In this document: one piece after another, positions 31,093 through 41,310 of the stretch
Position numbering within the stretch: the stretch's first letter is position 1
How the letters are laid out: every line of letters begins with the position of its first letter
Source: Pseudomonadota bacterium
GTDB lineage: Bacteria; Pseudomonadota; Gammaproteobacteria; Burkholderiales; JABEVD01
Assembly: GCA_021802655.1 (NCBI GenBank)
Contig: JAJZRP010000007.1
Coordinates: 21,464 to 63,183 of the forward strand
Length of the DNA stretch: 41,720 nucleotides
Reading direction: 5' to 3'
Made by a program: the position numbers and the translations under genes
The notes under the pieces: model-generated
The model's database searches: none
What the model was told of the DNA's origin: nothing
The model's input: the letters and a program-made list of their open reading frames with translations, nothing else

Positions 31093-32241
31093 TTGCCGGA
31101 AAAGATTCCCTACTGGCGCCTTTCCGGGTTCTATTTCTCCTATTTCGCCTTCCTCGGCGCTTTCACCCCCTACTGGAGCCTGTACCTCAAGTCGCTCGAT
31201 TTCAGCGCATTCCAGATCGGCATCCTGATGTCGATATTGCATGTGATGCGGCTGTTCGCGCCCCATTTCTGGGGATGGCGGGCCGACAGGACCGGAAAGC
31301 GGATAGGCATCGTCAGGACGACCGCCCTGTTTGGCCTGCTCGCCTATCTCGGCGTATTTTTCGGCAAGGATTTCCTTTGGCTCTTTGCCGTCATGATGCT
31401 GATGAATTTCTTCTGGAGCTCGAACCTGCCGCTCGTTGAAGCGACGACGCTGGGCCATCTCGACGGAAAAGTCGGGAAATACGGCACGATCCGCTCCTGG
31501 GGATCTGCGGGCTTCATATTTTCGGTGATCACGCTCGGCTATCTCCTCGACCGCATGCCCGTCGCTGCACTGCTCTGGGCCATACTCGGCTTCATGATCG
31601 GCATTCTTTTCTTCTCCCGAAAAATTCCCGAAGCGAAAAACACCCCGCACGAAACCGACTCAGTTTCCGTCTGGAACATATTGGGCAAAAGCGAAGTCAT
31701 CGCGCTTTTCGCTTCCTGCCTTCTGATGACGGCAGCGCACGGCCCCTATTACACTTTCTATTCGATCTATCTCGTTGCGCACGGCTACCCGAAAAGCAGC
31801 GTGGGCTGGCTTTGGGGATTGGGCGTCATCTGCGAAATCGGCGTATTCTTCCTGATGCCGAAAATCATGGCGAGATTCTCCCTGAAAGCGATCCTCGCCT
31901 TCAGCCTTGGATGCGCCGCACTGCGGTTTTCCCTGATCGGATGGGCAGTGGACGTTCCAATTCTGGTCATCCTCGCCCAAACCCTGCATGCAGCGACTTT
32001 CGGCGCGCACCATGCCGCAGCAATGGCCGCCACCCATCATTTCTTCAGGGGAAGATACCAGGCCAGAGGGCAGTCCTTCTATACCAGTCTGGTTTATGGC
32101 GCCGGAGGTATTCTGGGCGCACTGGGAGGAGGTTATGCCTGGGGTGCCTTCGGACCCCAGATCACTTTCAGCCTCGGCTCAATTGCAGCTCTTGCCGGAC
32201 TCCTCTGGCTGCTCCTGAAATTCAGGCTTTCACCCGGCTGA
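31093..32241 (+). CDS. MFS transporter, HcaT/LacY-like (MFS_1-like) family
   Basis: 382 residues and 12 predicted helices. The N-terminal part (YWRLSGFYFSYFAFLGAFTP-YWSLYLKSLDFSAFQIG) and the WGWRADRTGKR loop match the MFS group that contains the E. coli 3-phenylpropionate permease HcaT. In betaproteobacteria a gene of this type often follows aroC, but no substrate has been settled to my knowledge. The start is TTG 31093, three bases after the aroC stop; no ATG alternative keeps helix 1. Its end overlaps spoT on the other strand by 20 bp. Confidence 0.85.
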   Translation: MPEKIPYWRLSGFYFSYFAFLGAFTPYWSLYLKSLDFSAFQIGILMSILHVMRLFAPHFWGWRADRTGKRIGIVRTTALFGLLAYLGVFFGKDFLWLFAVMMLMNFFWSSNLPLVEATTLGHLDGKVGKYGTIRSWGSAGFIFSVITLGYLLDRMPVAALLWAILGFMIGILFFSRKIPEAKNTPHETDSVSVWNILGKSEVIALFASCLLMTAAHGPYYTFYSIYLVAHGYPKSSVGWLWGLGVICEIGVFFLMPKIMARFSLKAILAFSLGCAALRFSLIGWAVDVPILVILAQTLHAATFGAHHAAAMAATHHFFRGRYQARGQSFYTSLVYGAGGILGALGGGYAWGAFGPQITFSLGSIAALAGLLWLLLKFRLSPG

Positions 32242-34324
32242 TCTTGACCACATCCGGAATCCTGCGCAGGGCGCGCATCACCTGGGCAAGGTGCATCCTG
32301 TTGCTGACCTGGAGGGTAAAGTTGATGGTGGTGTAGCTTCCCTCCCCTTCCATGCTGATATTCTCGATATTGGAGCCCGCCTCGGCAATTTCAGCAGCGA
32401 CCCTGGCAAGCACCCCGCGCTGGTTCCTGACTTCGAGCCTGATGCTGACATCGAATTGCCGGGTGATCTCGCTGTCCCATTCGACATCCAGGCATTTCGC
32501 CGGATCGACCCTGCTTTTGCGGACCACGGGACAATCATGGGTATGGATGATGAGCCCCTGCCCTTTCTTGATGAAGCCGAGTATCGGATCCCCGGGAATC
32601 GGGCTGCAGCATTTGGCGAATTCGACAGCCATGCCTTCGGAACCGCGTATGACGAGCGGGGCGGGTTTCCCCTCAGGAGAGGCGACCTCCCCGTTGACAA
32701 GCCGTTTCGCCACGACGATGCCGAGCCGCCGCCCCAACCCGATGTCGGTCAGGATGTCCTGGCGCGACTTGGCTCCGGTCGACTTCAGCAATCTGTCCCA
32801 TTTCGCATCGTCCACCGACTCGGACGGAATCTTGAGCGCAACCATCGCCTGATTGAGCAGCCGCTCTCCCAGCATGGCGGACTGCTCATGCTGCATCGTT
32901 TTCAGGTAATGCCGGATATGCGTCCTGGCTTTGCCAGTGATCACGTATTCCAGCCATGCCGGGTTGGGCTTGGCGTAGGGCGCGGTGAGTATTTCCACCG
33001 TATCCCCGTTCCTGAGCGGCGTTCTCAAGGGTTTCAATTCCCCGTTGATCCTGACGGAAAGGCAGCGGCTCCCGATGTCGGTATGCACGCTGTAGGCGAA
33101 ATCGACCGGAGTCGCCCCCTTGGGCAGCACCAGAATCTTGCCCTTGGGCGTGAATACATAGATCTCGTCGGGGAAAAGATCGACCTTGAGATGCTCCAGG
33201 AACTCCACGGAATCCGTGCTCTCCCCGAGGGATTCGAGCAGGCTCTGCAGCCATTGATGGGTTTTGCGCTGCATCTCGCTCAGATTGGCTTCCGAACTCT
33301 TGTACAGCCAGTGGGATGCGACGCCGGCTTCGGCGATCTTGTGCATCTCCGTGGTTCTGATCTGGATCTCGATCGGGGTGCCGTAGGGGCCGAAAAGCGA
33401 GGTATGCAGCGATTGATATCCGTTCGATTTGGGAAGGGCGATGTAATCCTTGAATTTTCCCGGAATAGGCTTGTAGAGGCCGTGAAGCACGCCCAGTGCG
33501 TAGTAGCAGGTCGGAATGTCCTTCACCACCACCCTGAAGCCATAAATATCCTGAACTTCCGAGAAACTCAGTTTTTTCTCAAGCATCTTCCGGTAAATAC
33601 TGTAAAGATGCTTCTCCCGTCCGGTGGTCTGGGCCTCGATTCCGGCTTCCTTGAGGCGCTGTACGATGTTGTCCAGGATCTTGCCGACCACTTCGCGCCG
33701 GTTTCCCCGCGCCGCCTTGATCGCCTTGCTGAATACCCTGTACCGGTAGGGATAGAGATGCTTGAAGGAGAGGTCTTCGAGTTCCTGGTAGATGCTGTTG
33801 AGCCCCATGCGGTTGGCGATCTGGGCATAGATTTCCAGGGTTTCCCGCGCGATGCGCTTTCTTTTCGCAGGATACATCGCATCCAGGGTGCGCATGTTGT
33901 GCAGCCTGTCTGCGAGCTTGATCAGGATCACGCGTACATCGCTCGCCATCGCGAGCAGCATTTTCCTGAAATTCTCCGCCTGGGCGTCTTCCTGGGTCTG
34001 GAATTCGATCCTGTCGAGCTTGCTGACGCCGTCCACGAGATCCGCCACCGGCTGGCCGAACAGATTCGCAAGCTGCTCCTTGGTGACGGCGGTATCTTCC
34101 ATCACGTCGTGCAGCAGGGCTGCAGTCAGGGTTTGCCCGTCAAGACGCCACTCGGCCAGAATCCTGGCGACGGCGAGCGGGTGGGAGATGTAAGGGTCTC
34201 CCGATATTCTGAACTGTCCCTGGTGCGCTGCTTCGCTGAAACGATAGGCGGATTCGACTTGCAGCGCATCCTCCGGCTTAAGGTAGCCGGATATTTCCCT
34301 GGTGGGCAGGGGTTCTTCAGGCAA
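32222..34324 (-). CDS. spoT: Bifunctional (p)ppGpp synthetase/hydrolase (SpoT/Rel)
   Basis: A 700-residue long RSH protein. The hydrolase HD domain is intact (His48 in YISHPLAVARIL, His72-Asp73 in ALLHDVMEDT, and KLADRLHNMRT). The synthetase domain has YGFRVVVKDIPTCYYALG and KDYIALPKSNGYQSLHTSL. TGS (about 385-450, VFTPKGKILVLPKGATPVDF), a zinc-finger-like helical region and a C-terminal ACT domain (about 625-700) follow. An intact HD domain and an RSH-type synthetase loop predict both activities. It follows rpoZ by 5 bp in the conserved gmk-rpoZ-spoT order. Confidence 0.95.
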   Translation of the reverse strand: MPEEPLPTREISGYLKPEDALQVESAYRFSEAAHQGQFRISGDPYISHPLAVARILAEWRLDGQTLTAALLHDVMEDTAVTKEQLANLFGQPVADLVDGVSKLDRIEFQTQEDAQAENFRKMLLAMASDVRVILIKLADRLHNMRTLDAMYPAKRKRIARETLEIYAQIANRMGLNSIYQELEDLSFKHLYPYRYRVFSKAIKAARGNRREVVGKILDNIVQRLKEAGIEAQTTGREKHLYSIYRKMLEKKLSFSEVQDIYGFRVVVKDIPTCYYALGVLHGLYKPIPGKFKDYIALPKSNGYQSLHTSLFGPYGTPIEIQIRTTEMHKIAEAGVASHWLYKSSEANLSEMQRKTHQWLQSLLESLGESTDSVEFLEHLKVDLFPDEIYVFTPKGKILVLPKGATPVDFAYSVHTDIGSRCLSVRINGELKPLRTPLRNGDTVEILTAPYAKPNPAWLEYVITGKARTHIRHYLKTMQHEQSAMLGERLLNQAMVALKIPSESVDDAKWDRLLKSTGAKSRQDILTDIGLGRRLGIVVAKRLVNGEVASPEGKPAPLVIRGSEGMAVEFAKCCSPIPGDPILGFIKKGQGLIIHTHDCPVVRKSRVDPAKCLDVEWDSEITRQFDVSIRLEVRNQRGVLARVAAEIAEAGSNIENISMEGEGSYTTINFTLQVSNRMHLAQVMRALRRIPDVVKISRVKA

Positions 34325-34329
34325 GGCGC

Positions 34330-34536
34330 CTACGCCAGACCCTTGTTGAGCACTTCCAAACCCACCTTGCCTGCGGCGACTTCCCGCAGGGCGATCACGG
34401 TGGGTTTGTCGCGGTTGGGCTCCACCATCGGGTTCGAGCCGTTGGCAATCTGCCTCGCCCGGATCGTCGCGGCGAGGGTGAGCTCGAAGCGGTTGGGAAT
34501 GTTTTCGAGACAGTCGTCTATGGTGATGCGTGCCAT
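34330..34536 (-). CDS. rpoZ: RNA polymerase omega subunit
   Basis: 68 residues: [20 protein letters not shown], then the conserved RARQIANG and [18 protein letters not shown]. Omega helps assemble the beta-prime subunit and forms one ppGpp site in proteobacterial polymerase, which suits its position next to spoT. It lies 10 bp after gmk. Confidence 0.96.
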
Positions 34537-34546
34537 TTGGTTTCCT

Positions 34547-35155
34547 TCAGATAAGCGCTTGTATCAATTGATGGTGTCTGGCGAGCTGGCTTGCAAGCTT
34601 CAGCCGTTCCGCCCTGATGATGCTGGCAAGATCCAGCTTCGCCTCTTCCATGTCGTCGTTAATGATAACATAGTCGAATTCTTTCACATGCCCCATCTCT
34701 TCGCGGGCAGCCGCTATGCGCCTCTCTATCACTTCGATGCTGTCCTGACCGCGTCCGGTCAGGCGCGCCTTCAGGGCATCGACCGAAGGCGGGAGGATGA
34801 AGATGCCAACAGTTCCGGAAACGAGCTTTCTCACCTGGGCAGCGCCCTGCCAGTCGATTTCGAGCAGGATGTCGCACCCCTTCTGTCTTTCGGTCTCGAT
34901 CCATTTGCGCGAAGTGCCGTAGTAATTGCCGTGCACATGGGCGCTTTCGAGAAATTCCCCGTGCTTTTGCATTTCCTCGAAAACTTCCCCGGAAACGAAG
35001 CAATAGTCGCGCCCGTCCACTTCTCCCGGCCGCGGCATGCGCGTGGTGAAGGAGACGGAAAGGTGTACATTGGGGTCGGCCTCGAGCAGCGCCCTCACCA
35101 AACTGGTTTTTCCCGCCCCCGAGGGCGCGCTGATGATGAAAAGATTTCCGGTCAT
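34547..35155 (-). CDS. gmk: Guanylate kinase
   Basis: A 202-residue enzyme phosphorylating GMP to GDP. The P-loop is [11 protein letters not shown] (about 9-19); the GMP-binding part is [21 protein letters not shown] start at ATG 35155 ([15 protein letters not shown]); the frame stays open for 45 codons upstream, but those codons are not gmk-like. In most relatives yicC stands immediately before gmk. Here kup does, and yicC is 4.7 kb away. Confidence 0.96.
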
Positions 35156-35213
35156 GTCGATATCAGTTCTCAATGTTCGATTGTACCCAGTCTGCGCCCG
35201 AACCGAAAGCGGG

Positions 35214-37085
35214 CTACAGGACCACCTGGGCGCCGATCTCGACCACCCGGTTGGGAGGAAGCCGGAAGAAGGGAACGGCGCTGCCCGCATTGCGGAACAT
35301 GGCGACGAAAAGCTTCTCGCGCCAAAGCGCCATTTTGTGCCCCGCCTTCGGGATCAGCATTTCCCTGGAAAGAAAATAGGATGTATCCATCGGCTCGAGC
35401 GCCAGGATCTTCTGGGCAAAAAGCGCTTTGGGCAGGTTGGGCTCGTCCTTGAAGCCGAACCGGACGATCATGCGGTGGAATCCGTTTTGCAAATCCCGGT
35501 ATTCAATGCGCTCATCCACCGGAACATGGGGAATTTCCTGCACCAGCACGTTGAGGATTACCACCCTTTCGTGCAGTACCTTGTTGTGCTTCAGGTTGTG
35601 CAGGAGCGCATGCGGCACGCCTTCGGGATTGGCCGTCAGGAAAACCGCCGTTCCCGATACCCTGACGACAGAATCACGGGAAAGCGATGCGACGAAAGGT
35701 TCAAGCGCTATCGATTCGCGCTTCATGCGCTCCGCAAGCAGAACTCTCCCCTGCTTCCAGGTCGTCATCAGGGTGAAGATGACAGATGCGAGAACGAGCG
35801 GGAACCAGCCTCCCTCCTCGATCTTGATCAGATTGGCGCCAAAAAAGGCGAGATCGATTGTCATCAGGGGCAAAATCAGCAGCGCCCCCCTGATCAGCCC
35901 CCATCCCCAAAGTCTGCGGACGACAATGAAGGCAAGGAGGCTGGTCACGGTCATGGTGCCGGTCACGGCGATGCCGTAGGCCGATGCGAGGCTGGACGAA
36001 GTCCTGAATCCGAGGACAAGGGCTGCCACTGCGAGAAGCAGGGTCCAGTTGATCCCCGGAACGTAGATTTGACCGATCTCTTCCTCGGAAGTGTGCTGGG
36101 TCTCCATTCTGGGCGCATAACCCAGCCTGATGGCCTGACTGGTCATCGAAAACGCGCCTGAAATGACCGCCTGTGAGGCAATCACCGTCGCTGCCGTGGA
36201 AAGGAGGACGAGAGGAAAAAGCGCCCAGTGCGGAGCGAGGAGATAGAAGGGGTTGGCTATCGCCTTCGGATCGTGGATCAGGAGCGCGCCCTGGCCGAAA
36301 TAATTGAGCAGCAGAGCAGGCAGCACGAAGCCGAACCAGGCGAGCTGTATGGGCTTTCTGCCGAAATGCCCCATGTCGGCATAGAGCGCTTCCGCCCCTG
36401 TCAGCGCCAGCACCACTCCACCCAGGGAAAGAAAGCCTATCCCGGGATTTTTCTCCAGGAAAAACATGCCGTGCACGGGATTGAATGCGCCCAGCACATG
36501 CGGCTCGGACAGGATGCTGCGGATGCCGAACAGCGCCAGCACCAGGAACCAGAGGCACATGATTGGGCCGAAAAGAGTCCCCACGCTCGCAGTGCCCTTG
36601 CGCTGGAAGAAAAATAGCGCAAACAATATCGCGAGCGTCATGGGGATCACATAGCTCTTGAAGAGCGGACTCGCCACCTGCAATCCCTCGACTGCGGAAA
36701 GGACGGAGATGGCCGGCGTGATGACGCCATCCCCGTAAAACAGCGCCGCGCCGAACAGCCCCAGCATCAGGATTGTCGCGCGCCGCCTGCCATTTTTCCC
36801 CAGCTTGCCGAGAACCAGCGAGAGCAATGCCATGATGCCCCCCTCTCCCTTGTTGTCGGCGTGCATGATGAATACCACGTATTTGAAGGAAACCACGATC
36901 ATCAGCGACCAGAAAATCAGGGAAAGGATGCCGAGGATGTTTTCCTGATTCAATGGGACGGGATGCATCCCGGCAGTGAATATCGTGTTCAGGGTGTAGA
37001 GCGGACTGGTTCCGATGTCGCCGTAAACTATTCCCAGGGCGGCAAGAGAAAGGGTGATGAGGCCGGACTTGCCGTTTTTTTCCAT
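35214..37085 (-). CDS. kup: Low-affinity potassium transporter Kup
   Basis: A 623-residue KUP/HAK/KT K+:H+ symporter. About 12 membrane helices occupy residues 1-430; the hallmark is LGIVYGDIGTSPLYTLNTIF at about residues 15-34, followed by YGDGVITPAISVLSAVEGL and TGAEALYADMGHFG. The hydrophilic C-terminal part (about 450-623) is cytoplasmic. Start ATG 37085; the frame upstream of it is not conserved. It follows atpC by 73 bp, a gap that contains a nested inverted repeat, and precedes gmk by 58 bp. Part of the four-gene insertion between yicC and gmk. Confidence 0.95.
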   Translation of the reverse strand: MEKNGKSGLITLSLAALGIVYGDIGTSPLYTLNTIFTAGMHPVPLNQENILGILSLIFWSLMIVVSFKYVVFIMHADNKGEGGIMALLSLVLGKLGKNGRRRATILMLGLFGAALFYGDGVITPAISVLSAVEGLQVASPLFKSYVIPMTLAILFALFFFQRKGTASVGTLFGPIMCLWFLVLALFGIRSILSEPHVLGAFNPVHGMFFLEKNPGIGFLSLGGVVLALTGAEALYADMGHFGRKPIQLAWFGFVLPALLLNYFGQGALLIHDPKAIANPFYLLAPHWALFPLVLLSTAATVIASQAVISGAFSMTSQAIRLGYAPRMETQHTSEEEIGQIYVPGINWTLLLAVAALVLGFRTSSSLASAYGIAVTGTMTVTSLLAFIVVRRLWGWGLIRGALLILPLMTIDLAFFGANLIKIEEGGWFPLVLASVIFTLMTTWKQGRVLLAERMKRESIALEPFVASLSRDSVVRVSGTAVFLTANPEGVPHALLHNLKHNKVLHERVVILNVLVQEIPHVPVDERIEYRDLQNGFHRMIVRFGFKDEPNLPKALFAQKILALEPMDTSYFLSREMLIPKAGHKMALWREKLFVAMFRNAGSAVPFFRLPPNRVVEIGAQVVL

Positions 37086-37112
37086 GCTTTGAGGACCTGC
37101 TCCAAGAAATGT

Positions 37113-37142
37113 CGGCCAAGGATAGCCGATCCGGCAAGGCCG
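37113..37142 (-). other. Nested inverted repeat between atpC and kup
   Basis: Outer arms CGGCC/GGCCG (37113-37117 and 37138-37142) enclose an inner hairpin GCCG-n3-CGGC (37125-37135). The minus-strand RNA could fold here, between atpC and kup. No T-run follows, so it is not a standard terminator; it could be a processing or stability element or a regulator site. Confidence 0.35.
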
Positions 37143-37158
37143 ATCAACCGCAAACACC

Positions 37159-37590
37159 CTAAATCCCTTTCCTGCGGTGTTTCAACTGCATAATCCCGTT
37201 CAGGTCCCGAAATGCCGCAGCCAGATCCGCTTCGATTTTCGCATATTCCAGAGCCGTGACGCGATTTTTCATGGTTTCATCGACCTTCTTTTTTTCATCC
37301 CTGAGCCTGTCTTCGCTCATTTCCTCCTCGACGATGGCAAGATCGGAAAGAATGGTCACCCGTCTCGGCTGCACTTCCAGCATGCCGCTGGAGATATAGA
37401 CAACTTCCTCGTCGCTCCGCTCGGGAAGCCTCAGGCGCACAATTCCCGAGCGGAGCCGCGCGATCATCGGGGCATGCCCCGGGTAGATGCCGACTTCCCC
37501 CAGTTCTGCAGGGGCGACCACGAATTCGGCAAGGCCCGAAAAGATTGATCTTTCTATGCTGACGATGTCCACCTGAACGGTCATTGCCAT
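37159..37590 (-). CDS. atpC: F1 ATP synthase epsilon subunit, orphan copy
   Basis: A 143-residue full-length epsilon. The N-terminal beta-sandwich (about 1-88) starts MAMTVQVDIVSIERSIFSGL and contains VGIYPGHAPMIARLRSGIVR (the LPGH segment). The C-terminal helical pair (about 90-143) is the part that in other epsilons blocks ATP hydrolysis. It reads as betaproteobacterial but with several changes at usually conserved sites, for example VVAPAELGEVGIYPGH. It starts 15 bp after atpG. In a normal operon atpD (about 1.4 kb) lies between these two. No atpD trace fits in the gap. Function as an F1 part depends on alpha and beta encoded elsewhere. Confidence 0.93.
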   Translation of the reverse strand: MAMTVQVDIVSIERSIFSGLAEFVVAPAELGEVGIYPGHAPMIARLRSGIVRLRLPERSDEEVVYISSGMLEVQPRRVTILSDLAIVEEEMSEDRLRDEKKKVDETMKNRVTALEYAKIEADLAAAFRDLNGIMQLKHRRKGI

Positions 37591-37605
37591 ATACTGGTTT
37601 TCCTT

Positions 37606-38469
37606 TCAGACGGCCGACGCACCGGCAATGATTTCCGTGATTTCCTCGGTGATCGCAGTTTGCCTCGCCTTGTGGTAAATCTGTTTCAGTTCATCCATGA
37701 CATGACCTGCGTTGTCGGATGCCGCCTTCATCGCGACCATGCGCGCGCCCTGCTCGGATGCCATATTTTCGGCAACGGCAAGGTAAATCTGCGACTCGAT
37801 ATAGCGCCTCAGCATCTCGTCCACGATGATTTTCGGATCGGGCTCGTAAATGTAGTCCCAATAGCCCGAGGGGCTGCCAAGGCTTTCTCCCTTGAGCGGC
37901 AGCAACTGCTCCATTACGGGCTGATGCAGGATGGTGTTGACAAAGCGCGTATAGCAGATGAAAACCGCATCCAGCTTGCCTTCCCGGTAGGCATGGAGAA
38001 GTTTTCTCGAAGGTCCTGCAAGCTGTTCCATGCGCGGCGTATCCCCGAGTCCGACCGCGCTGGAGATGATGTCGGCATTCATGCGTTTCATGAAGCTGAG
38101 ACCGATGGCCCCCAGGGCGCAGACTTCCAGATCGATTTTCTTCTCGGTCCAGTTTTTCACCTGCCCGAGCACGAAACGCAAAGCATTGCTATTCAGTGCG
38201 CCGCACATGCCCTTGTCGGATGTGACGAGCAGCAGACCTACGCGACGGGCATTTTCCCGAACCGCCAGATAGGGGGACTTGTATTCCGGATGGGCATGGC
38301 TCATGTGCGCCGAAACATTGCGGATTATTTCGCCGTAGGGACGGGCGGCAATCATGCAGTCGCGCACCTTGCGAATTTTGGATTGCGCCACCATTTCCAT
38401 GGCATGAGTGAGCTTCTGCAGATTCCGCACGGTGCCGATCTTGCCACGAATTTCCTGTAAGCTCGCCAT
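37606..38469 (-). CDS. atpG: F1 ATP synthase gamma subunit, orphan copy
   Basis: A 287-residue, normal-length gamma. Both coiled-coil ends are kept: N-terminal MASLQEIRGKIGTVRNLQKL-THAMEMVAQSKIRK, and C-terminal ENMASEQGARMVAMKAASDN followed by the KARQTAITEEITEIIAGA segment that contacts beta. The Rossmann-like middle has LLVTSDKGMCGALNSNALRF and LDAVFICYTRFVNTILHQPV. Differences from the common proteobacterial sequence (KLTHAMEMVAQSK for KITxAMEMVAASK, GMCGALN for GLCGGLN) suggest a diverged paralogue, but the absence of any disruption argues for function. Upstream is a diguanylate cyclase instead of atpA. Confidence 0.94.
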   Translation of the reverse strand: MASLQEIRGKIGTVRNLQKLTHAMEMVAQSKIRKVRDCMIAARPYGEIIRNVSAHMSHAHPEYKSPYLAVRENARRVGLLLVTSDKGMCGALNSNALRFVLGQVKNWTEKKIDLEVCALGAIGLSFMKRMNADIISSAVGLGDTPRMEQLAGPSRKLLHAYREGKLDAVFICYTRFVNTILHQPVMEQLLPLKGESLGSPSGYWDYIYEPDPKIIVDEMLRRYIESQIYLAVAENMASEQGARMVAMKAASDNAGHVMDELKQIYHKARQTAITEEITEIIAGASAV

Positions 38470-38498
38470 GCTTCGCTTGCTCCCGAAAGGGAAATCGG

Positions 38499-39887
38499 TT
38501 ATTTTCCGACCTCGAAACTCGCCTCGCAGCGATTTCGCCCGTTGTTTTTCGCCCGGTACAGGGCCTCGTCAGCGAGCGAAATCAGGTGGTCGTAGTCCGG
38601 ATGCCCGTCGAATGCCGCCACTCCGATGCTGACCGTGACCGAAGCGGTTTTCTCCCCGTCGACTTTGAATGGAGTCGAGGCAAAGCGGTGGCGTATCGTT
38701 TCGGCCACGTTGAATGCTGCAGTAGCCCCCACCTCGACCAGAACGATGAGAATCTCCTCTCCGCCGTAGCGGAAAACGAAATCGCCGGAACGCACCAGGC
38801 CCAGTATCAGGTCGGCCGACTGCTGGAGCACCATGTCCCCTCCCTCGTGGCCGTGACTGTCGTTGATCTCCTTGAAGAAATCGATATCGACGAGCAGCAC
38901 TGCAAACGCCGTCTTGCGCTGGTTCGCAATGGCGATCTCCCGGCTCAGCACGGAAGGCAGGAAACGCCTGTTGAGAAGCCGAGTGAGAACGTCCCTGGCG
39001 TTTTCGATTTCGAGGTATCGGTCGAAAAGGGTGGTGAGCAGATATTTGATTTCCAGGAGCTTGCTTTCGATCTCGCTCACGATCGATGCGATTTCCGCCC
39101 CTTCGCTGCTTTCCAGGCGCGCCATCAGATCCTCGTCTATCCTGTTCATAGTCGACTGGATGCGATGGATTTCAGGCGCCCCCTCGAACACGACGTTGGC
39201 TTTGTGGTGCAGCCAGAGTCCAAAAGCTGATGTGCCTATCGGCAGCATGGCCGAGCGTTTCCCGCCGTAAAGCGCGAAAAGCATCTGGTGCCCCCATTCC
39301 AGGAGCGCGGCGCGCTGCCTTTCGCGCTCCACGGAAATGTTCTGGCTCAGGGAGAACAGGCGATAGGCTTCGTCGGTGCGCACACTGCGCGCCGTCCCCG
39401 TCACATAGGCCGAACTGATGATCTCCATTGCAAGATCGATCAGGTTCCCGGTGTATCCGATTCCCTTCGCGAGATCGTCCGGAGCAAATCCTGCCGCAAA
39501 CAGGCGCCCTGCAATTTCCCGCTTCAGAAGCCTCGCCCCGCGCATGACGACATGGATAGGCACATGGATGCGCGCATGGACAAAACCGATTTGCTTCTGC
39601 ATGCCAACCGCCTCCGAAAGGTCTGTTGCGCTGTCGATATGGAAAAGGGTGGACAGCCAGTTCTGGAGGGAGAAACGCAGGCGCTTGTTGATCAGATCAT
39701 GCCCCAGGAAGGGCGCAGCTTCGGGATTGCCGAGCATGGTCGTGTAGAAAAGCTCGGCGAACTGCTCCTTGTGGGAATCGACCAATTTCCCGATGGCAAG
39801 GCGCAAATCTTCGCTGATTTCGCCGCGAATTTCACTCCATTCCTCGACTGCAGCCTGAAAAGACTGTCCCGCTTCTTCGCTTACCAT
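38499..39887 (-). CDS. Globin-coupled diguanylate cyclase (DosC-like)
   Basis: 462 residues in the order of E. coli DosC. An N-terminal globin-sensor domain (about 25-165) has the proximal His104 in IGFVHARIHVPIHVV and Tyr48 in LFYTTML where DosC has its oxygen-contacting tyrosine. A helical linker (about 170-300) follows. The C-terminal GGDEF domain (about 305-455) has DVLTRLLNRRFLPSVL, VDIDFFKEINDSHGHEGGD, the active site RYGGEEI and an RxxD product-inhibition site (RSGD) five residues before it. It is predicted to bind haem and make c-di-GMP according to O2 or another gas ligand. It starts 10 bp after yicC and lies 29 bp before atpG. Confidence 0.88.
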   Translation of the reverse strand: MVSEEAGQSFQAAVEEWSEIRGEISEDLRLAIGKLVDSHKEQFAELFYTTMLGNPEAAPFLGHDLINKRLRFSLQNWLSTLFHIDSATDLSEAVGMQKQIGFVHARIHVPIHVVMRGARLLKREIAGRLFAAGFAPDDLAKGIGYTGNLIDLAMEIISSAYVTGTARSVRTDEAYRLFSLSQNISVERERQRAALLEWGHQMLFALYGGKRSAMLPIGTSAFGLWLHHKANVVFEGAPEIHRIQSTMNRIDEDLMARLESSEGAEIASIVSEIESKLLEIKYLLTTLFDRYLEIENARDVLTRLLNRRFLPSVLSREIAIANQRKTAFAVLLVDIDFFKEINDSHGHEGGDMVLQQSADLILGLVRSGDFVFRYGGEEILIVLVEVGATAAFNVAETIRHRFASTPFKVDGEKTASVTVSIGVAAFDGHPDYDHLISLADEALYRAKNNGRNRCEASFEVGK

Positions 39888-39897
39888 GACCTTTTCC

Positions 39898-40764
39898 TTA
39901 CTCGATATTCTGGATCTGCTCGCGCATCTGTTCGATCAGCACCTTGATTTCCATGGCAATCCTGGACACCTCGATGTCGACAGATTTCGACCCCAGGGTA
40001 TTCGCCTCGCGGTTGAGCTCCTGCATCAAAAAATCCAGCCGTTTTCCGACCACCCCGCCCTTTTCGAGAATCCGCTCCATCTCGTCGAGATGCGCAGCAA
40101 GGCGCGAAAGCTCCTCGTCGACGTCGATCTTGCCTGCGAAGAGCGTCAATTCCTGCCTGATGCGCTCATCGTCAAGATCGATCATTGCCGCTTTCAGGCG
40201 CGAAACCAGCTTCTCCTGAAAGGAGGCGATCAGTTCCGGTATCCTCGGGGAGGCCAGCGCGAGCTTCTTCCTGATTTCCGCCATGCGCAAGAGCAGAATA
40301 GCCTTCAGTTTTTCCCCTTCGCGCCTTCGCGTTGCGGAAAAATCGGCCATGGCGGCATCCAGCAATTCGCCCACTTCTGTTTGAGCGTTTTCCCGTGATA
40401 AGTTTTCCTTCCCGAAAATGCCTGGCCATTTCAGGATTTCCGCAACGGAAAGGCTGACAGCCTCGGGAATCTTTTCCCTGATCTCCCTGTTCAACCCGGC
40501 GAGCCTTGCAAGCACCGCTTCATCGATACTCCTGCGGGTCTCGCTTTCTTCCGAGGCATTGACGCTCAGCCTGCAATCGACCTTTCCCCTGCTCAATTCC
40601 GAGGCCAGCTTCTCGCGAATCACGGGCTCTAAAAACTTCAACTCGTCGGGGAGACGGAACTGGATGTCGAGATAGCGATGGTTGAGGGAACGTATTTCGA
40701 GAAGGATCGAACCGATCTCCGTTTCCCTGGAGACGGAAGCAAATCCGGTCATGCTGGCAATCAT
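39898..40764 (-). CDS. yicC: YicC/YloC family endoribonuclease
   Basis: 288 residues, the usual size. N-terminal MIASMTGFASVSRETEIGSI; conserved RSLNHRYLDIQFRLPDELKF; and the C-terminal DUF1732 part with KRLDFLMQELNREANTLGSK and IAMEIKVLIEQMREQIQNIE. YicC-type proteins have been shown to cleave RNA in E. coli. In many bacteria yicC directly precedes gmk; here four genes intervene. It appears to be the first gene of the long minus-strand run, with a TATACT -10-like box about 27 bp upstream of the start. Confidence 0.93.
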   Translation of the reverse strand: MIASMTGFASVSRETEIGSILLEIRSLNHRYLDIQFRLPDELKFLEPVIREKLASELSRGKVDCRLSVNASEESETRRSIDEAVLARLAGLNREIREKIPEAVSLSVAEILKWPGIFGKENLSRENAQTEVGELLDAAMADFSATRRREGEKLKAILLLRMAEIRKKLALASPRIPELIASFQEKLVSRLKAAMIDLDDERIRQELTLFAGKIDVDEELSRLAAHLDEMERILEKGGVVGKRLDFLMQELNREANTLGSKSVDIEVSRIAMEIKVLIEQMREQIQNIE

Positions 40765-40790
40765 GGGTAAAAAATCTTTCGTAAATTGCT

Positions 40791-40796
40791 AGTATA
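40791..40796 (-). promoter_or_regulatory. Possible -10 box upstream of yicC
   Basis: On the minus strand TATACT (complement of 40791-40796) would start transcription near 40784, about 20 nt before the yicC ATG. I see no good -35 match at 16-18 bp, so this is weak. If real, it could drive yicC through spoT. Confidence 0.3.
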
Positions 40797-40885
40797 AATG
40801 AAAACCGTGACAGGAGTATGGCTGTTCCCTGCGAAACCGCACTCACCGGGCTTCAAGAAATCGTGCCTGATCCGTCAAATTTTTA

Positions 40886-40891
40886 TATACT
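40886..40891 (+). promoter_or_regulatory. Possible -10 box upstream of the Rossmann protein gene
   Basis: TATACT (40886-40891) would start transcription near 40898, about 38 nt before ATG 40936. The -35 region (TGCCTG, 40864-40869) is a poor match. The 171-bp space 40765-40935 otherwise shows nothing I recognise. Confidence 0.3.
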
Positions 40892-40935
40892 GTTCGCGGC
40901 AAGTCGCCAATCATAATAATTAGCTTGGGGGGATC

Positions 40936-41310
40936 ATGCAAAAACAGAACATCGCCATCATCGGCCTGGGAAGAATAGGATCGGCCTTTCTGGGCGCCAT
41001 GCTGCAGAAGAAGCTGAGCATCAATCTGGCCTGCGTCGCAGAGCGCACGGATACACCGGCCAAATTGCAGGCCGCCTCGGCAGGAATCAGGATCGCCACG
41101 CTGGACGAAGTTGTCGCCATGGGCAATGCGATCGACATCATCTTCGACCTGACCGGCATTCCCGACGTGCGCAGGGAACTGCGCGAGAAGCTCCTCGCCT
41201 CGAACAACAGCCACACGATCATTGCATCGGAGACCGTCGCCCGCCTGATCTGGTCGCTGATCTCGGACGCCGATCTGCCGGAAATCGCTGGACGCAAGAC
41301 CGGCTATTGA
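40936..41310 (+). CDS. Short Rossmann-fold NAD(P)-binding protein
   Basis: 124 residues forming only a nucleotide-binding half: IAIIGLGRIGSAFLGAML at residues 6-23 has the GxGxxG turn, and the following strand ends in CVAER, the place of a cofactor-ribose acidic residue. TLDEVVAMGNAIDIIFDLTG and NNSHTIIASETVARLIWSLI resemble the N-terminal part of homoserine dehydrogenase or dihydrodipicolinate reductase folds, but no catalytic domain follows. A GGGGGGA ribosome site lies three bases before ATG 40936. It may be a redox or metabolite sensor, or a subunit; function unknown. Convergent with the metZ-like gene. Confidence 0.75.
   Translation: MQKQNIAIIGLGRIGSAFLGAMLQKKLSINLACVAERTDTPAKLQAASAGIRIATLDEVVAMGNAIDIIFDLTGIPDVRRELREKLLASNNSHTIIASETVARLIWSLISDADLPEIAGRKTGY

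Follow-up and report, generated by a model that had tools for sequence, protein, structure and literature searches.

A DosC-like globin-coupled diguanylate cyclase gene in a variable chromosomal slot, beside an orphan pair of F1 gamma and epsilon genes

The DNA analyzed, referred to here as the window, is a stretch of 41,720 nucleotides from a bacterium of the order Burkholderiales whose draft genome (2.01 Mb, 86 contigs) is 88% complete. An open reading frame on the minus strand, which starts with ATG and had been delimited exactly in a preliminary description of the sequence, encodes a protein of the globin-coupled diguanylate cyclase type, designated DGC. The gene order in this region is yicC-DGC-gamma2-epsilon2-kup-gmk-rpoZ-relA, as follows.

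39898..40764, minus strand: yicC, YicC/YloC family endoribonuclease, 10 nt upstream of DGC
38499..39887, minus strand: DGC, globin-coupled diguanylate cyclase-type protein, 462 aa, by domain and residue matches
37606..38469, minus strand: gamma2, paralogous F1 gamma subunit, 287 aa, 29 nt downstream of DGC
37159..37590, minus strand: epsilon2, paralogous F1 epsilon subunit, 143 aa, 15 nt after gamma2
35214..37085, minus strand: kup potassium transporter, start inferred from the Kup model, which matches from residue 25 of the open reading frame 35214-37157
34547..35155, minus strand: gmk guanylate kinase, start inferred from the family model, which matches from residue 48 of a longer open reading frame
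34330..34536, minus strand: rpoZ-like open reading frame, 68 aa, recognized by eye from the translation
32222..34324, minus strand: RelA/SpoT-type (p)ppGpp enzyme, 700 aa

Since yicC, DGC, gamma2 and epsilon2 lie on the same strand and are separated by gaps of only 10, 29 and 15 nt, the four genes may possibly be co-transcribed. A promoter and terminator scan of positions 32000 to 41000 gave counts equal to those of shuffled sequences and placed no such site between DGC and gamma2, and no known RNA family scored above its gathering threshold between 30000 and 41720.

Three Pfam domains were found in DGC, each above the curated cut-off and in the order characteristic of DosC: Protoglobin (residues 31-163, E 3e-12), the DosC-type middle domain DosC_2nd (residues 186-289, E 1e-16) and GGDEF (residues 297-453, E 1e-44). 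This order at such scores does not arise by chance. The best match among solved chains was the GGDEF domain of DosC itself, followed by other GGDEF proteins and by globin domains of globin-coupled sensors. A single-sequence AlphaFold model of DGC alone had a mean pLDDT of 36 and gave no usable structure.

The protein was aligned with the product of E. coli K-12 dosC (DosC, also called EcGReg), to which it is 33% identical, and with two plasmid-borne relatives (about 42%). Most of the 25 positions compared were residues that Wan et al. 2017 (PMC5549716) describe as critical in DosC. DGC was identical to DosC at 21 of the 25, including F47, Y48, L70, H104, H228, K229, R366, D369 and the A-site residues apart from two given below. 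The DosC-like character that had been ascribed to His104 and Tyr48 was borne out, in that the proximal H104 corresponds to DosC H98 and the distal Y48 to DosC Y43; both haem-pocket residues, as well as W77, were invariant in the six globin-coupled cyclases aligned. The inhibitory RxxD site was likewise present, R366xxD369 being the equivalent of R365xxD368 in DosC and located five residues before the signature. The segment that had been read as a long helical linker resembling that of DosC contains the DosC-type middle domain with the His-Lys pair, H228-K229, in which the Tistrella relative has Arg in place of Lys.

Four of the positions compared differed from DosC. Ser73 replaces DosC A68, where BpeGReg also has a serine (PMC5549716); Leu74 replaces the distal Met69, as in the Tistrella and Kozakia relatives; Glu377 replaces Asp376, an allowed Asp/Glu exchange; and Ile379 replaces Phe378, so that residues 375-379 read GGEEI where DosC has GGDEF at 374-378. 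The reading of the signature as GGEEI rather than GGEEF was thus confirmed. The features described as conserved in BpeGReg of Bordetella pertussis and PccGCS of Pectobacterium carotovorum are a distal Tyr and Ser, a Trp at the haem edge, the proximal His, the His-Lys pair of a pi-helix, RxxD and GGEEF (PMC7033309). By this description, and that of PMC5549716, DGC has every one of them except the final Phe of GGEEF. Globin-coupled cyclases of Tistrella, Kozakia and the genomes G760, G562 and G670 were 38-43% identical to DGC over most of its length, but had GGEEF in all five cases, and the flanks examined lacked yicC, gmk and atp genes; no such gene was found within the at least 1.5 kb examined on each side of nine loci of this type in other bacteria. 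The E. coli gene also has a different setting, dosC being next to dosP, while DGC lies between yicC and gamma2.

DGC is therefore best described as a close variant of an already known kind of protein, a haem-globin diguanylate cyclase that resembles DosC, has an I-site and, as far as its sequence tells, would work as DosC does. The gene very probably specifies an enzyme that senses O2 and produces c-di-GMP. A globin that responds to NO, CO or redox state instead, with the same cyclase output, is a rather improbable alternative. The choice of ligand cannot be read from sequence, and the distal Met69 of DosC has become Leu74, but the distal Tyr and Ser, which are described as hydrogen bonding or steadying O2 in BpeGReg and PccGCS (PMC7033309), are both in place.

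The GGEEI signature departs from the strict GG(D/E)EF pattern in its fifth letter. Orthologs of DGC were found in three of the nine sampled species of the genus, counting the query, in a search with E up to 1e-40 and at most 27 candidates scored per genome, three of the nine genomes being less than 89% complete. The other two orthologs were 79% identical to the query, and all three had Ile at this position. At the loci examined with phmmer, the 50 distinct GGDEF domains comprised 24 with GGDEF, 23 with GGEEF and 3 with GGEEI, the last group consisting of DGC and its two orthologs. That set contained 25 further domains from the window genome, 18 with GGDEF and 7 with GGEEF. A search of 150 genomes of the order for the DNA word encoding YGGEEI gave 15 occurrences, six of which were inside GGDEF domains as judged by phmmer, and three of these six belonged to the DGC ortholog group. 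The word for YGGEEF occurred 460 times, a count of raw word matches whose domains were not each confirmed, and the reversed control words occurred 3 and 0 times. These counts uphold the view that Ile in place of Phe is uncommon, roughly one in a hundred, yet it is not unique. A literature search for the word GGEEI returned no paper.

The substitution raises the question of whether the cyclase is weak or dead, in which case the protein would be an O2-dependent receptor for c-di-GMP or GTP by way of its I-site. The rarity of GGEEI, both in the 150 genomes and among the 50 distinct domains, where it is restricted to the DGC orthologs, lends this reading some weight, as does the finding that the F378A mutation left DosC inactive in each of two in vivo assays (PMC5549716). 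Several observations nevertheless make it unlikely, 1) the exchange of Phe for Ile retains a bulky hydrophobic side chain, 2) the other A-site positions compared are kept, 3) the other three YGGEEI proteins with a GGDEF domain carry the same change with the remaining signature letters intact, and 4) GGDEF is the most constrained part of DGC. Among the three orthologs (NG86, dS 0.7-1.7), dN/dS was lowest in the GGDEF domain (0.08-0.10), intermediate in the middle domain (0.17-0.18) and highest in the globin (0.20-0.24). Because the GGDEF domain is more constrained than the sensor, an active enzyme appears likelier than a dead one; the pattern argues for activity and is no proof of it. A Phe to Ile change that has been kept naturally under strong purifying selection makes the weight of the fifth signature residue testable.

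With 32 matches to PF00990 (GGDEF), the window genome has a dense c-di-GMP network for its size of only 2.0 Mb; its single Protoglobin match is DGC. Protoglobin matches were found in six of the ten genomes searched, with five in G001, four in G004 and three in G002. The two genomes with the most matches, G001 and G004 (loci L165, L166, L171, L172 and L174), are members of the genus in which no DGC ortholog was found.

The preliminary description had placed DGC where atpA would stand, directly before F1 subunit genes, and had suggested that its output was tied to respiration. The position itself is correct insofar as DGC ends 29 nt before a gene of the atpG type, but what follows is an orphan paralogous pair that preserves only the formal order of two genes. 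Neither atpA (alpha) nor atpD (beta) is present beside gamma2 and epsilon2. A full operon, atpI-B-E-F-H-A-G-D-C followed by glmU, is located on another contig of the same genome, C36, where the genes other than gamma and epsilon were named by eye from their translations. The window genome has two gamma and two epsilon genes, and its atpA is in that operon.

The arrangement around DGC was compared across the genus. In G005 the order is yicC-gamma2-epsilon2-kup-gmk-relA with no DGC, and G006, in two contig pieces, is the same. In G007 the order is yicC-DGC-gmk-relA, with gamma2 on another contig, while G002 has DGC, a thiopurine methyltransferase gene (TPMT), gmk and relA, with yicC and gamma2 on other contigs. 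The remaining species have yicC, a methyltransferase gene and gmk (G008), yicC and gmk (G003), or a methyltransferase gene and gmk (G001 and G004); yicC was located on a different contig in G001, whereas the search for it in G004 found none. Sulfuriferula multivorans and G022 have yicC and gmk. Thus gmk-relA is next to DGC or one gene away in two of the three carriers, and behind gamma2-epsilon2-kup in the third. A thiopurine S-methyltransferase gene directly precedes gmk in four of the nine species (L118 4747-5409, L146 3819-4472, L149 2891-3541 and L150 5578-6228; the family search was made on the L118 copy alone), which indicates that the interval between yicC and gmk is a variable site.

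These comparisons bear on the idea that DGC is a dedicated partner of the F1 genes, through which O2 would set c-di-GMP output in step with respiration or with ATP synthase. The shared strand, the 29 nt gap free of promoter- or terminator-like sites and the stretches coding for GGDEF domains that flank gamma2-epsilon2 in G002 could be taken in its favor. However, 1) the full atp operon is elsewhere in the genome, 2) DGC adjoins gamma2 only in the window species, one of nine species and one of three carriers, 3) gamma2-epsilon2 occupies this slot in the two nearest species, which have no DGC there, 4) two other species have DGC without an adjoining gamma2, and 5) the G002 stretches match DGC at 37-42.5% in the GGDEF part only, the true ortholog in G002 being on another contig. 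A dedicated partnership is accordingly very improbable; the evidence says that DGC is not linked to gamma2 and that its proximity to the F1 genes is not a conserved feature. The suggested respiratory tie lost its support because the neighbors are orphan paralogs, the linkage is found in one of three carriers and the two nearest species lack DGC. The presence of an F1 gene nearby should not be read as a link to respiration before the rest of the genome has been searched for the operon. The G002 locus itself (L039, 7731-11967), in which GGDEF-coding stretches that are not DGC orthologs flank gamma2-epsilon2 on both sides, is a separate observation.

In the species tree, the window species grouped with G005 and G006 (support 100 and 99), and the deeper nodes were weak (39-82). 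Most simply, gamma2-epsilon2-kup would have entered a slot that already held DGC in the ancestor of these three species, and DGC would then have been lost in G005 and G006. This simplest course, a matter of parsimony over a tree with weak nodes, would also account for the lack of a conserved vicinity, since the F1 genes would have come later into that slot. The insertion of DGC between yicC and gamma2 was considered and rejected: loss is simpler because in G007 DGC fills the interval from yicC to gmk with no gamma2 there, and in G002 a single gene separates it from gmk. Given the weak deeper nodes, DGC may instead have been gained in the window species.

Taken as a whole, the probable explanation is that DGC is a globin-coupled O2-sensor cyclase in a variable slot with yicC on one side and gmk-rpoZ-relA on the other, whose F1 vicinity is not conserved. 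The protein would act as a dimer or larger assembly, in which a haem held by His104 would bind O2, with Tyr48 and Ser73 steadying the ligand. Activation by O2 would be transmitted through the middle domain, with His228-Lys229, and the helical linker, and would alter the contact between two GGDEF domains, allowing two GTP to be converted to c-di-GMP, with product inhibition at R366xxD369. A single conserved cluster of yicC, gmk, rpoZ and spoT has been described in Acidithiobacillia, with the remark that (p)ppGpp control of Gmk could affect c-di-GMP by way of GTP (PMC6416229). A cyclase gene within yicC-gmk-rpoZ-relA would be a neat fit for guanine nucleotide signaling, which is only a thought given its occurrence in three of nine species.

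The surprise at this locus is the conserved orphan pair, which deserves a second look more than DGC does. The gamma2 protein matched PF00231, NF004144 and TIGR01146 over its full length and epsilon2 matched PF02823, TIGR01216 and NF001847, all above the curated cut-offs. Alpha and beta genes were absent from the flanks of gamma2 examined in all nine sampled species of the genus, so the pair is not part of a normal F1 operon. An alternate (N-type) F1F0 ATPase was rejected, the scores for TIGR03323 (87.7 of 282.35 bits) and TIGR03166 (24.3 of 100.1 bits) being far below the cut-offs. The identity to the canonical copies of the same genome was 60% for gamma2 and 50% for epsilon2.

When 60 genomes were searched, gamma2 was found at 74-94% identity in all eight other species of the genus. 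Seven of these also have the canonical gamma, and in the eighth, G005, the contig stops within the operon. A scan of the named genome collection with gamma2 gave 38 loci, eight in metagenome-assembled genomes of the genus (74-94%), one in S. multivorans at 67% and the rest at 61% or less; three of the latter were mapped and all three lie in normal atp operons. Similarly, only 10 of 399 genomes of the order had epsilon2 at 62% identity or more, those of the nine genus species, including the window species, and G287, taken as S. multivorans, with the next best match at 53%. In the gamma tree, whose bootstrap had not fully converged, the gamma2 sequences of the genus and of S. multivorans formed one group (100/96), and the genus's canonical gamma sequences stood separately (100/100). 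As the tree sets the two groups apart, gamma2 is an old paralog and no recent copy.

Comparison with the eight other species gave dN/dS values of 0.07-0.13 for gamma2 and 0.07-0.22 for epsilon2, which are rough because dS exceeded 1 in most pairs. The mean identity within the genus was 79.9% for gamma2 versus 89.0% for the canonical gamma, and 71.4% for epsilon2 versus 87.1% for the canonical epsilon, a faster change that could reflect either relaxed constraint or altered function. The pair occupies at least three different neighborhoods within the genus, as compared by eye (relatives L038-L045 and L120). In S. multivorans (L120, 8105-13787), epsilon2 starts 44 nt after the ttrA-like gene of a ttrBCA-like run and gamma2 is on the other side of ttrS/ttrR-like genes, so that the pair is split. 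The best models there were tetrathionate reductase A, B and C and TtrS, with FixJ ranking above TtrR for the response regulator. The tetrathionate label is nevertheless loose, because every ttr match was below its curated cut-off and the iron-sulfur protein passed the DsrO cut-off instead.

At both its N and C termini, gamma2 retains the stretches that are highly conserved in gamma, which makes its assembly with alpha3-beta3 plausible. One possibility, less than evenly likely in our estimation, is that the genus keeps a second, wandering central-stalk module: under some condition gamma2-epsilon2 would take the place of gamma-epsilon in the shared alpha3-beta3/F0 body, forming a second ATP synthase isoform with other coupling or inhibition. 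Low O2 or another electron acceptor would be a guess at the condition. Within 300 nt upstream of gamma2, the best fits to an FNR-type box had 3-4 mismatches and did not exceed shuffled sequences at any of the 10 loci.

The working analog is the second gamma gene that Arabidopsis has besides its main one (ATPC1/ATPC2). To our knowledge, the redox-regulated stretch of the chloroplast gamma is absent from bacterial gamma. The dicot chloroplast isoform is described as giving ATP synthase a different regulation (PMC5522872), but it is a chloroplast protein and a gamma alone, with no epsilon partner. If one genome has two sets of central-stalk genes and one of everything else, rotor exchange becomes testable in bacteria, as with the chloroplast gamma isoforms. 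A literature search for an orphan or second bacterial gamma-epsilon pair found none in the titles and abstract openings among the matches listed, and one for Sulfuriferula multivorans and ATP synthase returned no paper. A survey of transcription units (PMC5709465) has many split atp units, with no gamma-epsilon unit among the matches listed.

Two further genomes, G041 and G085, were considered as cases of an orphan pair since each has two epsilon genes, but were rejected when the copy examined proved to be in a full operon. This F-type operon (L119 and L121) has the unusual order A-D-G-C, and G041 also has a normal operon with the order A-G-D on another contig.
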